From Candidatus Hydrogenedentota bacterium (lineage in GTDB: Bacteria > Hydrogenedentota > Hydrogenedentia > Hydrogenedentales > JAEUWI01), in the NCBI GenBank assembly GCA_019637335.1, contig JAHBVV010000020.1:62001-126000 (forward strand): a stretch of 64,000 nt of DNA. The letters are read 5' to 3'. This document shows, piece by piece, positions 25,625-50,975 of this stretch. Both the position numbers and the translations under genes were made by a program. Position 1 is the first letter of the stretch; each line of letters starts with the position of its first letter. The notes beneath the pieces are model-generated. The model was not told the DNA's origin, did no database searches, and saw only the letters and a program-made list of their open reading frames with translations.

Positions 25625-25653
25625 TCCCGGAGGCGCGCTGCCGCCCGGCGGAT

Positions 25654-25681
25654 GGAACCTTTCCGGCGCACCCGGGTTCAA
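25654..25681 (+). promoter_or_regulatory. Possible ECF-type promoter of the sigma operon
   Basis: GGAACC (25654-25659) resembles the -35 of many ECF sigma factors; 16 bases later stands GTTCAA. Its place 28 bases before the sigma gene would suit autoregulation, but the -10 is not diagnostic. Confidence 0.25.
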
Positions 25682-25708
25682 CTCTGTGACAGAGAGGTTC
25701 GCCCCCGC

Positions 25709-26275
25709 ATGAGGGAACTCGATGACTGGGCGCTTGTAGAGCGGGCGCAATCCGGAAACAGCGATGCGTTTGCCCTGATCGTGCGGCGGTATCAGGGACC
25801 CGTCGTGCACTTTTGCTACCGTATGGTCGGTTCCCGGCAGGATGCCGAGGATATTGCGCAGGAGGCTTTCCTGCGGGTCTACCGCTATCTGGGCCGCCTG
25901 CGCCCGGAAGCCCGGTTTTCCACCTTCCTCTTCGGGATCGCGCGCAATCTGGCGCTCAATCACCTGCGGGATGCGCGCCGGCGCGGCCGGGACCGGGCGC
26001 AGCCCCTGGACGCGCGCCCCGATGTGGAATCGCGCTACGGGCGCCCCGCGCACGACGCCGAGGCAAGCGAAACCGGCGCGCGCATCGCCGCCGCGCTGGC
26101 GCAGCTCAGCCCCGAGCACCGGATGGCCGTCCATCTGCGCGAAATCGAAGGTCTGGACTACGCGGACATCGCCCGGATCATGCGGTGCCGGCCGGGCACG
26201 GTGAAAAGCCGCCTGGCCCGCGCGCGCGACCAGTTGCGGCGGCTGATCCTCGAACAGGAGAGTGACGCACCATGA
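25709..26275 (+). CDS. ECF-family RNA polymerase sigma factor
   Basis: A 188-residue group IV sigma factor that redirects RNA polymerase to a stress regulon. The ATG 25709 has AGAGAGG about 11 bases upstream; a longer frame from 25652 lacks a good site. Region sigma2 (about 5-75) contains the RNA-polymerase-binding DAEDIAQEAFLRVYRYL and the promoter-melting FSTFLFGIARNLALNHLRD. Region sigma4 (about 125-180) has LSPEHRMAVHLREIEGLDYADIARIMRCRPGTV (split: LSPEHRMAVHLREIEGL and YADIARIMRCRPGTVKSR). The stop overlaps the ATG of the anti-sigma gene (ATGA), a sign of translational coupling. This follows the normal sigma/anti-sigma arrangement. Confidence 0.92.
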   Translation: MRELDDWALVERAQSGNSDAFALIVRRYQGPVVHFCYRMVGSRQDAEDIAQEAFLRVYRYLGRLRPEARFSTFLFGIARNLALNHLRDARRRGRDRAQPLDARPDVESRYGRPAHDAEASETGARIAAALAQLSPEHRMAVHLREIEGLDYADIARIMRCRPGTVKSRLARARDQLRRLILEQESDAP

Positions 26276-26922
26276 AGTCCCCCCACGTTCTGCGGGAATT
26301 GAGCGCCTATATCGACGGCGAGGCGCGCAACCCGGATCGCATAGCCCGGCATCTGCAATCCTGCCCGGACTGCGCCCGCCGCCACCTCGACCTGCTGAAG
26401 ATCGCCTACCAGATCCGCGGCTTGGAGGGGCCGGCTGTCTCCGCCGGCTTTGAGGGCCGGGTGGTCGCGCGGGCGGCGGAACCGCAGGAGCGTGAGATTT
26501 CGTGGCTCTGGGCCGGAGGCCACCCCCTCGTGGCGTGTGCGGCCATCTTCGCGGTGATCGCGGGTGTCGCGGCCTTCAACACCATGCGCGCGGATGCGCC
26601 GCCCCGGATCGGGGCCGAGTTGGCGCCCGCGCTGAACCCGGCCTGGCGCGAAGACGAGCCGGTGGTGGCGGCGCTGGCGCACCTGCTGGAGACCGGGGCC
26701 CCCACGGATCTTTTCGCGGCCTTCGATGGCGTGGAAGACGAGCTTCCGGACCGCGGCGACGTTCCGCTGGAGGAGGTATTGGATATGTTGGCGGAAGGCG
26801 CGATTGGCGGCGGCGGCGCGGAGGAGGCGTATGCGGGGTTTGGCGCGCCGCTCGATGACCTGGTGGAATTGGATCGGCGCGTGTTGGCCGATATGCTGGA
26901 AGAATACAGAGGCGAGGTGTGA
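26272..26922 (+). CDS. Membrane anti-sigma factor with zinc-finger (ZAS) motif
   Basis: A 216-residue single-pass membrane protein overlapping the sigma gene by four bases. Residues 27-34 give the HxxxCxxC zinc anti-sigma motif (HLQSCPDC), which binds and silences the ECF sigma factor. A membrane segment lies near 84-106 (PLVACAAIFAVIAGVAAF), and the last 110 residues face the periplasm; they are acidic and helical. Release of the sigma factor would follow proteolysis or a change in this outer part. It is followed after one base by the gene for a small periplasmic helical protein, a likely third component of the signalling route. Confidence 0.9.
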   Translation: MKSPHVLRELSAYIDGEARNPDRIARHLQSCPDCARRHLDLLKIAYQIRGLEGPAVSAGFEGRVVARAAEPQEREISWLWAGGHPLVACAAIFAVIAGVAAFNTMRADAPPRIGAELAPALNPAWREDEPVVAALAHLLETGAPTDLFAAFDGVEDELPDRGDVPLEEVLDMLAEGAIGGGGAEEAYAGFGAPLDDLVELDRRVLADMLEEYRGEV

Positions 26923-32029: not shown

Positions 32030-33865
32030 TTGTTTCAAGTCACGGCGAGGAGCGGGGCGTCGAAGGGCACATCCTGGGTGATCGCGGAGCGTCCGCTCGT
32101 GTTCGGGCGTGACATCGTGTGCGACATCCGGGTGAGCGATCCCCTCGTATCGCGCCGTCACTGCCAGATCTGGCTGGATGGCGATCGCGTGACGCTGCGT
32201 GATCTGGGCAGCAGCAACGCTACCTTCGTCAACGGCGAGCCGGTCAAGGAGGCGCGGCTGGAGCCTGGCGACGAGGTGGCGGTCGGCAGCGCGATATTCC
32301 TCGTTGCGCGGGTGGTGATGGACACCGAGGTTCCGTCGTTTTCCCCGAACTCGCCTCCGCCCACTCAATCTTTGGTGCCCGGCGAGCCCCTCTATCTCGA
32401 CCGCGACCGCACCGCGCTCGCGGTCCAGGGCCGCCCGCGCACGGCGGAGGATCTCGCCGAACTGTTCGCGCTGGGCCGACTGCTCAGCGAGGCCTCCTCC
32501 TTCTCGGGCCTCATTATGGCGCTGGTGCAGCGCGTGGCGGATCGATTTTCGCCGCGCGTGGTGTTGGTCGCGTACCGCCGCTACCTGGGCGAGGGCCTCG
32601 ACTTCTACCCGCAGGACAGCCACCGGCTGTTTTCCTCGCGGTATCCTGTGGACGAGGTGATCGGACGTTGCATGCAGGATCAGCAGGGGGTGCTTCTGCC
32701 GGAGGGTTATCGCAACGGGGAGGAAGCGGGGGTGCGCACGACGCTGGTCGCGCCCATGGTGCTCGGCCAGGAGGCGATCGGCGCGCTCATCGTGCAGGCC
32801 GAGTCGCCTGTGCAGATCTACGACGAGGGCGATCTCGAGTATCTGCTCGCCGTGGCGCAGGTCACGGCGCCTTACGCGCACGCGCTGGACCGGCTCCGTA
32901 TCCTGGAGCGCGAGAACGAGCTGCTGGTCGCGGGCGCCGCGGAAGGCGTGGCGCTGATCGGGGAGAGCCCGGCCGTCGAGCGGGTTCGGGGCCTGGCCCG
33001 GGACTGCGCGCGGTCGGATTTGAACACGATTGTGCTCGGGGAGACGGGCACGGGCAAGGAACTCGTCGTGCGCCTTATCCACCAGCTGTCGGCCCGATCG
33101 TCCGCGCCGCTGACGGTGGTGAATTGCGCGGCGATACCGCCCGAGCTGCTGGAGAGCGAACTGTTTGGTTACGAGCGCGGGGCGTTTACCGGCGCGCACA
33201 AGCAGAAAACCGGCCTTTTCGAAGAAAGCGACGGCGGCACGATGTTCCTGGATGAGCTGTGCGATCTCAGCCCGGCGAACCAGGCGCGGCTCCTGCGCGC
33301 AATCGAGACGGGGATCTTCCGGCGGCTGGGCGGGACCTCGGACATCCGCGTGAACGTCCGTTTCATCAGCGCGACGAACCGGAACATGGCCGAAGAGGTC
33401 AAGAGCGGCGCATTCCGGCGCGACTTGTACCACCGGCTGGGCGTCTTCGAAATCACGATCCCGCCGCTTCGCGAGCGCAAGAGCGATATTCAACTCCTGG
33501 CGAAGCATTTCCACCGCCAGGCGCGCGAGCGCCTGGGCAACCGAACCCTGGGTTTTACGGAGGACGCGCTCCGCTACCTGGAGGGCCAGCCGTGGCACGG
33601 GAACGTGCGCGAACTGCGGAACCGGATCGAACGTGCGATGGTAACCGCGCCGACGGAGCGTATCCGGCGCAAGGACCTGGAGCAGAGTCCCGACGCGGCG
33701 CACTCGGACGGCGAGCAGCCGCTCGCGACCCTGGAGGAGGCCGAAAAGGCCCACATTCACGAGGCGCTTCTCCGCTGCGATGGGAACATCGCGGCGGCGG
33801 CGCAGCTGCTGGATATCGGGCGCAGCACACTCTACCGGAAGGTCAGCGAGTACCGCCTTCTGTAG
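32030..33865 (+). CDS. Sigma54-dependent activator with FHA and GAF domains
   Basis: A 611-residue transcription activator from TTG 32030, with AGGAG 6 bases upstream. Residues about 20-95 form an FHA domain (FGRD 25-28, SRRH 41-44, NG 68-69) that binds phosphothreonine. A GAF-like domain (about 140-290) follows. The AAA+ domain has Walker A GETGTGKE (337-344), the sigma54-contacting loop GAFTGA (384-389) and Walker B GGTMFLDEL. A Fis-type helix-turn-helix (NIAAAAQLLDIGRSTLYRKV) ends the protein. It should couple a Ser/Thr kinase signal to RpoN-dependent promoters, probably including genes of this exopolysaccharide locus; no kinase gene and no clear -24/-12 site (GG-N10-GC) was found nearby. 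Confidence 0.92.
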   Translation: MFQVTARSGASKGTSWVIAERPLVFGRDIVCDIRVSDPLVSRRHCQIWLDGDRVTLRDLGSSNATFVNGEPVKEARLEPGDEVAVGSAIFLVARVVMDTEVPSFSPNSPPPTQSLVPGEPLYLDRDRTALAVQGRPRTAEDLAELFALGRLLSEASSFSGLIMALVQRVADRFSPRVVLVAYRRYLGEGLDFYPQDSHRLFSSRYPVDEVIGRCMQDQQGVLLPEGYRNGEEAGVRTTLVAPMVLGQEAIGALIVQAESPVQIYDEGDLEYLLAVAQVTAPYAHALDRLRILERENELLVAGAAEGVALIGESPAVERVRGLARDCARSDLNTIVLGETGTGKELVVRLIHQLSARSSAPLTVVNCAAIPPELLESELFGYERGAFTGAHKQKTGLFEESDGGTMFLDELCDLSPANQARLLRAIETGIFRRLGGTSDIRVNVRFISATNRNMAEEVKSGAFRRDLYHRLGVFEITIPPLRERKSDIQLLAKHFHRQARERLGNRTLGFTEDALRYLEGQPWHGNVRELRNRIERAMVTAPTERIRRKDLEQSPDAAHSDGEQPLATLEEAEKAHIHEALLRCDGNIAAAAQLLDIGRSTLYRKVSEYRLL

Positions 33866-48931: not shown

Positions 48932-49067
48932 GAATAGTCTCTCCTTTGGTGAGTCAAGTGTCGTCGTTGGATAGTCGCGCGGGGCGCTCCCCAGGGATGT
49001 CTAAAGAGACCCGCCCGGCATGCAAGTGGATACGCGGCGGGGAGAATCTGGGAAGGGCGTGGGGTTT

Positions 49068-49097
49068 AGTATAGGGCTTGGAGGGGATTTGAGGCAA
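49068..49097 (-). promoter_or_regulatory. Sigma70 promoter of ahcY
   Basis: On the minus strand TTGCCT (49097-49092), 18 bases, TATACT (49073-49068). The leader to the ATG is about 130 bases, long enough for regulation, but no known riboswitch is recognised. Confidence 0.55.
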
Positions 49098-49129: not shown

Positions 49130-49161
49130 GGGACTACAGGGACTACAGGGACTACAGGGAC
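49130..49161. repeat. Short 9-bp tandem repeat
   Basis: GGGACTACA is repeated three and a half times between ahcY and the sigma-ankyrin gene. Same 9-bp period as the large minisatellite at 44 kb but a different word. Confidence 0.75.
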
Positions 49162-49216: not shown

Positions 49217-50815
49217 TTAATTGCCGCTTCCCGCGCGGAGTTCGCCGCCGTGCACGCGCAGGAGGCGCGCGGCGTTTTCGCGCCCGAAAAAGAGCGCTTC
49301 GTGCATCGGGGTTTTCCGGAACAGGCGGTCGGGCCGGTTGATTTCCGCGCCCTGGTGAATCAGGAGGCGGACCAGCCCCTCGCGGCCGCGCACAGAGGCC
49401 GCGTGCAGAGGGGTAAACCCGAACGAGCCCGCGCGCCGATCCACGGTTTTCGGCTGGCGCGCCAGCAGGTCCATCAACGCGTCTTCCCGGTCCAGCGCGA
49501 TGGCGCTGATGGGATCGAGCCGCGCGCCGCGCGAAAGCAGGTATTCCGCCAACTCGGCGTGACCATGCTCCGCGGCAATATGCAGGGGGGAGGCACCGAT
49601 CCGCAACCGCGCGTTGACCTGCGCGGGATCCCGGCGGATCAGGCGGCTCGCCAACGCCAGGTCTCCCAGCGAGGCGGCGGCGAACAGATCGAACGGGAGG
49701 CCCGCGCCGTGGGCGATGCGCAGCAGGTCGAGGTTGCTATGGCGCGCCGCCAGGTGCATCAGGTTCTTGCCATTGTTCATCACGCGCCGGGGATCGCCCG
49801 AGGCGGCCAGGAGCGCGGTAAGCACGTCGCCATGCCCGAAATCGGCGGCCAGGTGCACCGGCGTGCAGCCCCACTGATCCGGGCGGTTCGGGTCCGCGCC
49901 AAGCAGCAGCAGCCTCCGTACGAGCGTGCCGTGTCCCCCGCAGGCCGCCCAGTGCAGCGCGGTGCGCCGCCACGGTCCCGGGGTATCCACCTCCGGACCC
50001 CGGCCGGCGGCGTCGCCGAAGCCGAGCGCGGCTTTTTCAAAGGGTCCGGGCCGGGCCCCGCGGGACAACAGCAAGTCGGTGACGCGGCTGTTCCCGCCAT
50101 AGTGGGCCGCGTGGGCCGCGAACAGGAGCAGGGAGAGGCCCTCGTCGTTGGCGGCATCCAGCAGTTCGGGCGATTCGTCCAGCAGCGCGGCCACGCGGTG
50201 GGCGTGCCCGTGCCAGGCGGCCATGAACAGCTGTACCTCGCGCGGGAAAACGTCCGCCGGGTCCGGCGAATCGGCGAATTCGTTCGTCTGATGGAGAAAC
50301 TGCGCCAGCCGCTGCCGGGCGGTGTAGAGCCGCTTTTTCACGGTCGTTAGCGGGAGTCCGAGCCGCCGCGCCAGGTCCTGCTGCGGCTCGCTTTCCCAGT
50401 AGACGGCGTGGATCAGGTCCCGTTGGTCGGGTGTGAGCACCGTGAGGGCGATGTGCACCAGGGAACTCCGCCGATCGCGGGCAATCCGCTCCCCGGCGGG
50501 CGCACTATCGTCCGCCAGGTGCGCCGCGGCGGAAAGCTCCACCGAGGGCAGGGACTTCAAGCGCGTGACGCGGTCGCACTGCTTGATCAGGATGCGCTTG
50601 AACCAGGCCGAAAAGGCCGCCGGCGCCTGGAGCTGGTGCAGCTTGAGGGCCGCCTCCAGAAAGGCCTCCTGCACCACTTCTTCCGCGCGGTGGTGATCGC
50701 CGAGCCACGCATAGGCCCGATCGTGGGCGAAATGGTGGAAACGGCGCACCAGCGACGCAAACGCGGTGGTGTCGCCTTCCTGGGCGGCGCGAATGGTTTG
50801 TGCAAGGTCGTTCAT
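49217..50815 (-). CDS. ECF sigma factor fused to C-terminal ankyrin repeats
   Basis: A 532-residue protein from ATG 50815. Residues about 10-75 are sigma2 (HHRAEEVVQEAFLEAALKLH, FSAWFKRILIKQCDRVTRLK) and about 118-173 sigma4 (LTPDQRDLIHAVYWES, LARRLGLPLTTVKKRLYTAR), so it should bind RNA polymerase and a promoter. Residues about 190-532 hold some nine ankyrin repeats (RTALHWAACGGHGTLVRRLL, TPVHLAADFGHGDVLTALLA, SPLHIAAEHGHAELAEYLLS, TPLHAASVRGREGLVRLLIH). No frame break or internal stop separates the parts. There is no anti-sigma gene beside it, so the ankyrin tail may replace one, holding the factor inactive or sensing a partner protein. Ribosome-binding site is poor. Confidence 0.88.
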   Translation of the reverse strand: MNDLAQTIRAAQEGDTTAFASLVRRFHHFAHDRAYAWLGDHHRAEEVVQEAFLEAALKLHQLQAPAAFSAWFKRILIKQCDRVTRLKSLPSVELSAAAHLADDSAPAGERIARDRRSSLVHIALTVLTPDQRDLIHAVYWESEPQQDLARRLGLPLTTVKKRLYTARQRLAQFLHQTNEFADSPDPADVFPREVQLFMAAWHGHAHRVAALLDESPELLDAANDEGLSLLLFAAHAAHYGGNSRVTDLLLSRGARPGPFEKAALGFGDAAGRGPEVDTPGPWRRTALHWAACGGHGTLVRRLLLLGADPNRPDQWGCTPVHLAADFGHGDVLTALLAASGDPRRVMNNGKNLMHLAARHSNLDLLRIAHGAGLPFDLFAAASLGDLALASRLIRRDPAQVNARLRIGASPLHIAAEHGHAELAEYLLSRGARLDPISAIALDREDALMDLLARQPKTVDRRAGSFGFTPLHAASVRGREGLVRLLIHQGAEINRPDRLFRKTPMHEALFFGRENAARLLRVHGGELRAGSGN

Positions 50816-50838: not shown

Positions 50839-50844
50839 ATTATA
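50839..50844 (-). promoter_or_regulatory. Consensus -10 of the sigma-ankyrin gene
   Basis: TATAAT on the minus strand, 23 bases before the ATG, implying a leader of about 15 bases. No -35 is obvious. Confidence 0.4.
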
Positions 50845-50975
50845 CCCGGAAAGACCCGCATCGTGCGTTTCGGGATACTCTCGGGTTCACGGCAAGCGCA
50901 TTTAAACCCGCTCGCGGCGTATGGGCGCATGACTGAGGCGATTTGGAGCCTTGGATCAAGAGAAGTGAGCGCGCA

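Follow-up and report, generated by a model that had tools for sequence, protein, structure and literature searches.

An ECF sigma factor with an ankyrin-repeat tail and its putative methionine/SAM-cycle regulon in Hydrogenedentota

Which promoters would be served by an ECF sigma factor that runs in a single frame into a long ankyrin-repeat domain, and what would the repeats contribute? A gene of this kind (sigma-Ank, 532 amino acids) lies on the minus strand of a 64,000-nucleotide stretch of Candidatus Hydrogenedentota DNA (the window, from genome G000), running from an ATG at 50815 to a stop at 49217 (49217..50815, minus strand). Its description rests on the open reading frame, Pfam and NCBIfam matches, AlphaFold2 modeling and seven orthologues. 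We propose, with a probability of about 0.8, that sigma-Ank is a one-component ECF sigma factor that regulates its own gene, serves the methionine/SAM cycle and the supply of one-carbon units, and is controlled through its ankyrin domain.

The protein comprises sigma region 2 (residues 22–80; 50576..50752, minus strand; Pfam Sigma70_r2, E 2.6e-8), sigma region 4 (residues 123–170; 50306..50449, minus strand; Sigma70_r4_2, 1.8e-8, and Sigma70_r4, 2.3e-8) and an ankyrin domain (residues ~191–527; 49235..50245, minus strand) matched by Ank_2 in five stretches (9e-46), all above the curated cut-offs. With the NCBIfam sigma70-ECF model the protein reaches 62 bits (cut-off 42.9), and a profile search of the PDB places the sigma part among the ECF factors SigW, SigH and RpoE. 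With sigma2 and sigma4 only, and neither sigma1 nor sigma3, the domain content is that of ECF (sigma70 group 4) factors. The initial annotation had described sigma2, sigma4 and ankyrin repeats in one frame, and the Pfam and NCBIfam matches bear this out at residue ranges close to those first given; it named no strand, and the ahcY neighbor, promoter motif and methyl-cycle regulon described below are additions to it. Region 4, on whose helix-turn-helix the assignment had been made to depend, scores as such in both Pfam and NCBIfam sigma70-ECF.

An AlphaFold2 model built on the seven orthologues (mean pLDDT 80, pTM 0.64) resolves the ankyrin part into 10 clear helix pairs and one degenerate pair, so that the nine repeats counted originally become approximately 11. 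The sigma2–sigma4 linker of approximately 35 residues (86–119) is modeled with low confidence, as is the short segment that joins sigma4 to the ankyrin part (177–187); residues 177–190 are the least conserved of the protein (46%). No transmembrane stretch was found in sigma-Ank (highest 19-residue Kyte-Doolittle mean 1.33), and no anti-sigma gene was evident on reading the neighboring open reading frames. Both results agree with the earlier view of a one-component, cytosolic ECF factor. That view had been contrasted with an ECF gene and its partner at 25.7–26.9 kb in the window; the ECF gene (25652–26275) is there and is followed by a small protein gene (26272–26922), which the initial annotation put forward as an anti-sigma protein.

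Full-length orthologues of sigma-Ank (43–71% identity) occur in seven of 68 Hydrogenedentota genomes belonging to three families: the genus contributes all four of its genomes, family f5 two and f10 one. The fusion is not an assembly artefact, since each of these seven independent genomes keeps the frame open. Searches for plasmid-borne relatives yielded none of full length, the two ankyrin matches examined being ankyrin proteins, and candidates from Bacillota (L003) and Paraburkholderia (L004) match in the ankyrin repeats only. A second, separate group of sigma-Ank proteins (761 amino acids, other neighbors) exists outside Hydrogenedentota in the same domain, with two full-length copies in G316 and one relative in G179; the architecture thus arose or spread more than once. 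This distinct family is represented by L085:1866-4151 (minus strand) in G316 and L108 in G179; one G316 copy has a glnA-like gene two genes away, and the other has ankyrin-only relatives tens of kilobases away.

Other ECF fusions were seen in the course of this survey. Three Hydrogenedentota genomes of family f11 (G049, G045, and G044) encode an ECF factor whose fusion partner is the core domain of a PheRS-type class II aminoacyl-tRNA synthetase (PF01409, E down to 2e-38; L086:3633-5009, plus strand; L087:3619-4932, plus strand; L088:2505-3770, minus strand, respectively). Should the synthetase-like part act as a sensor, this would be a striking kind of sigma factor. Related ECF domains in L071:1459-3144, L084:1489-3126, and L070:1453-3075 carry other C-terminal parts, namely GNAT-like and protein-kinase-like regions (both by eye) and DUF1835 (Pfam), indicating that the sigma module has often been recombined with possible sensors. 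In the genome of the window, another ECF factor opens a frame of 1390 amino acids with carboxypeptidase-regulatory-like repeated segments, as judged by eye (L011:1-2088, minus strand; G000:C1:608713).

Conservation within the ankyrin domain is concentrated on one face. Across seven aligned repeats, finger positions 3 and 5, which are among those randomized in DARPins, are nearly invariant at 89% identity, against 46% for the convex face and 82% for the framework; compared with all non-framework ankyrin positions, the difference has a permutation p of 5e-5. On sequence grounds, this pattern is as expected of a conserved ridge for partner binding, and it favors the earlier suggestion that the repeats act as a platform, one that appears to be protein-binding. 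Structure searches returned ankyrin proteins and DARPins, matches that say nothing on function.

In all seven carriers, across three families, ahcY (S-adenosylhomocysteine hydrolase, NCBIfam TIGR00936; 47471..48931, minus strand, in the window) lies downstream of sigma-Ank on the same strand. It is the immediate next gene in six of the seven (gaps of approximately 120–560 nt); in the seventh, 2.8 kb including an insert separate the two genes. The other side varies, with a cytochrome-c-type gene, a toxin–antitoxin-like pair, a purH-like gene and others recognized by eye; in the window the neighbors are ahcY, a large divergent gene of the Planctomycete cytochrome-c type (by eye) and two small open reading frames. 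In G036 (L001:3506-4170) and G037 (L002:4127-4900), the upstream side of sigma-Ank is occupied by a divergent Phd/RelE-like toxin–antitoxin pair (by eye). In non-carriers the neighbors of ahcY vary; family f3, for example, has a PfkB-type kinase-like gene there (by eye). The ahcY tree tracks the families and places the carriers in two separate parts, with non-carrier sisters, which argues against joint horizontal transfer of sigma-Ank and ahcY and indicates that the pair was kept, or made again, beside a resident ahcY.

An asymmetric two-box motif, GTATC[CT]-N15-GGG[AT]C[AT]TT, precedes sigma-Ank in seven of seven carriers, with single departures in G024 and G025. In the window it forms a putative autoregulatory ECF promoter, GTATCC-N15-GGGTCTTT (50850..50878, minus strand), 34 nt before the ATG. 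GGAAC and GTAAC are the usual −35 elements of ECF promoters, and in family f5 box 1 shifts from the GTATC of the genus to these forms; at the sequence level, sigma-Ank is thus preceded by a predicted autoregulatory two-box promoter with the GGAAC-like −35 that characterizes ECF factors. In a leave-one-out analysis, the best site per locus scored 16–24 bits, lay upstream of sigma-Ank in all seven cases and ended 30–106 nt from its start. The motif sites are non-palindromic and oriented to their gene, with a spacing of 15 and sometimes 14. Just 3′ of the site in the window, a TATAAT (50839..50844, minus strand) may provide a second, housekeeping-type −10; it is conserved only within the genus (four genomes), and the target promoters lack it.

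Scanning both strands of the 64-kb window gave only two sites above 14 bits, the promoter of sigma-Ank itself and that of ahcY (GTATCC-N15-GGGTCTCT; 49005..49033, minus strand; 18.5 bits by matrix; 73 nt before ahcY). A third, at 32641 (13.7 bits), is within the coding region of a sigma54-activator-like gene. Simpler patterns fared worse: GCGGGTCTTT alone was not enriched (28 matches versus 50 in the control), and GGGTCTTT-N5-TATAAT had its sole exact match at the sigma-Ank gene, so that the two-box form is needed. Most of the other motif matches in G000 and G035 are inside longer reading frames and were discarded. A sigma70-type promoter-like site (TTGCCT-N18-TATACT; 49068..49097, minus strand) also lies between sigma-Ank and ahcY, with equivalents in G035 and G037. 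Given this housekeeping-type promoter in three carriers, ahcY probably receives an additional, conditional input from the ECF site. The same intergenic gap contains short direct repeats (CCTGTAGTC; window 49130–49160, minus strand).

A genome-wide search with the two-box pattern in the seven carriers and one non-carrier led unprompted, amid chance matches, to glyA (G000 and G024), metH (G035 and G037) and gcvPA (G035), with the glyA and metH sites positioned approximately 50–160 nt before the genes. AhcY, MetF, and GcvPA were identified above NCBIfam cut-offs; MetH and GlyA are best NCBIfam matches from N-terminal parts, below the full-length cut-offs. A matrix trained on the seven sigma-Ank sites only was then scanned over the 400 nt before glyA, metH, ahcY, and gcvPA. 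Sites of at least 13 bits were found in 12 of 25 promoters of carriers and one of 72 of non-carriers (Fisher 8e-8), and sites of at least 16 bits in 11 of 25 and none of 72, counts that are partly circular because glyA, metH, and gcvPA had been picked from matches. A count restricted to held-out gene–genome pairs corrects for this: seven of 20 reach at least 14 bits (p 6.6e-9, taking the rate seen in non-carriers), although these p-values overstate independence, since the close relatives G000 and G035 contribute much. For comparison, each strand of 8 Mb of second-order random sequence contained two sites of at least 18 bits; this level is reached by a site before each of sigma-Ank, glyA, metH, and ahcY in the genome of the window. 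Non-carriers of the same family lack the sites, and the non-carrier G039 has a 15.1-bit match before ahcY.

The sites are unevenly distributed among carriers. That of ahcY is clear only in G000 and G035 and weak in G024 (10.7 bits), that of gcvPA is restricted to G000 and G035, and the metH site of G036 is displaced to −686. The metF gene diverges from metH and is faced by a site of its own, opposite in orientation, in the four members of the genus; the site is weaker in G000 (12.4 bits) than in G035, G037, and G036. The metF region of G025 contains an 11.2-bit site on the reverse strand. In L165 and L166, the ECF sites in the metF–metH gap are opposed such that the leaders would overlap by approximately 100 nt and would be mutually antisense. 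Rfam searches of the window and of the ahcY, metH, glyA, and gcvPA loci examined detected no SAM, SAH, cobalamin or glycine riboswitch at gathering scores.

As judged from sequence, the predicted promoter link of sigma-Ank to methyl-cycle genes is strong. Sigma-Ank itself is the likely reader of the motif, given sites that are asymmetric, gene-facing and of fixed spacing, that stand before the sigma gene in every carrier, take the ECF −35 in f5 and are missing from nearly all non-carriers; transcription would then start at these sites. The motif could in principle be bound by another methyl-cycle regulator (SahR-, MetR- or MetJ-like), sigma-Ank being merely one of the regulated genes with an unrelated role. 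Known regulators do govern the same gene set: the core SahR regulon comprises sahR, ahcY, metH, metF, and metK, and the conserved MetR targets are metH, metF, and glyA (PMC4239095). SahR sites are, however, 20-bp palindromes (PMC4239095), whereas the motif described here is non-palindromic and gene-facing, has ECF-type −35 variants, precedes sigma-Ank in all seven carriers and is absent from nearly all non-carriers, and we consider an operator of this kind very unlikely. The resemblance to these systems is one of physiological task. SahR (ArsR family) and SAH riboswitch regulons share ahcY, metH, and metF with the set found here, and SahR also targets its own gene; MetR (LysR family) shares metH, metF, and glyA. 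Sigma-Ank differs from SahR and the riboswitch in being a sigma factor with an asymmetric promoter in place of a palindrome or RNA element, and in including glyA and gcvPA, and from MetR in protein family and mode, ahcY being outside the MetR groups in PMC4239095. Its domains are sigma2, sigma4 and ankyrin, with no ArsR- or LysR-type DNA-binding domain. Sigma-Ank would work like SahR and MetR but belongs to neither family.

How the tail acts is the second matter to be weighed. The sensor role of the ankyrin domain is an inference, as are its signal, its partner and the sign of its control. In an autoinhibited variant of our preferred explanation, which takes up the self-inhibition raised in the initial annotation, keeps the methyl-cycle regulon and differs in the sign of control, the ankyrin arc would mask sigma2 and sigma4 in cis until relieved by a partner. 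The extensions of ECF41 factors inhibit by contacting the sigma part (PMC8999054), and no separate anti-sigma is evident beside sigma-Ank. On the other hand, the TPR tails of ECF42 are required for activity instead (PMC8999054), the segment before the repeats is poorly conserved and modeled with low confidence, and no docking is visible in the model. We regard masking in cis as possible but less likely than not. The repeats might also be a mere scaffold that anchors the sigma factor at some site or in a complex, its activity being set by expression level alone. The autoregulatory site and possible housekeeping −10 before sigma-Ank would suit such an arrangement, and conserved finger positions fit a scaffold too; but their conservation resembles that of a specific binding ridge, and a scaffold without sensing seems unlikely.

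Known ECF groups provide partial parallels. ECF42 factors lack an anti-sigma and have a helical-repeat, protein-interaction tail, an arrangement that sigma-Ank, with no anti-sigma evident beside it, resembles; the tail of sigma-Ank is ankyrin rather than TPR and approximately 340 rather than approximately 200 residues long, and its gene adjoins ahcY, so that neither the TPR extension nor the YCII-related neighbor of ECF42 is present. Members of ECF57 (WD40-like repeats) and ECF41 (SnoaL tail) likewise have a C-terminal regulatory extension in cis, of a different fold. NCBIfam and PADLOC models of MzaA, the sigma factor of the MZA defense system, weakly match part of the ankyrin region, but at 46.9 against 800 bits (NCBIfam) and E 4.4e-5 (PADLOC), through ankyrin repeats only, sigma-Ank falls far short of an MzaA assignment. 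Among the papers accessible to us, none combines an ECF sigma factor with ankyrin repeats as a C-terminal extension, and ankyrin is absent from the ECF groups with extensions listed in one review (PMC8999054); the primary ECF classification may note ankyrin tails.

In the mechanism we favor, sigma-Ank would recruit RNA polymerase to G(T/G)A(T/A)C(C/T)-N15-GGG(T/A)CTTT promoters before its own gene, ahcY, metH, metF, glyA, and gcvPA, and would thereby set the capacity of the SAH–homocysteine–methionine cycle and of folate one-carbon supply, with positive autoregulation. The ankyrin domain would bind a conserved cytosolic protein partner through its finger ridge and switch the sigma part on or off; the simplest guess at this partner is a cycle enzyme, for instance AhcY. 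It is tempting to speculate, although we regard this as rather doubtful, that the ridge recognizes AhcY, GlyA or MetH in a ligand-dependent state, such that a metabolic enzyme would directly inform the sigma factor of methylation status, and that sigma-Ank factors form a branch of a broader class of ECF proteins with metabolic-enzyme-like or repeat sensors (synthetase-like, GNAT-like, ankyrin) in this phylum.

Bacterial control of the methionine/SAM cycle relies on the transcription factors MetJ, MetR, SahR, and SamR and on riboswitches; we know of no report of a sigma factor dedicated to it, and we believe the sigma-Ank regulon to be undescribed. If sigma-Ank, with its own repeat-protein sensor, acts on ahcY, metH, metF, glyA, and gcvPA, bacteria would have evolved one more independent way of controlling the cycle, and the present work gives the ankyrin-tailed ECF architecture a testable function and a ready set of promoters.
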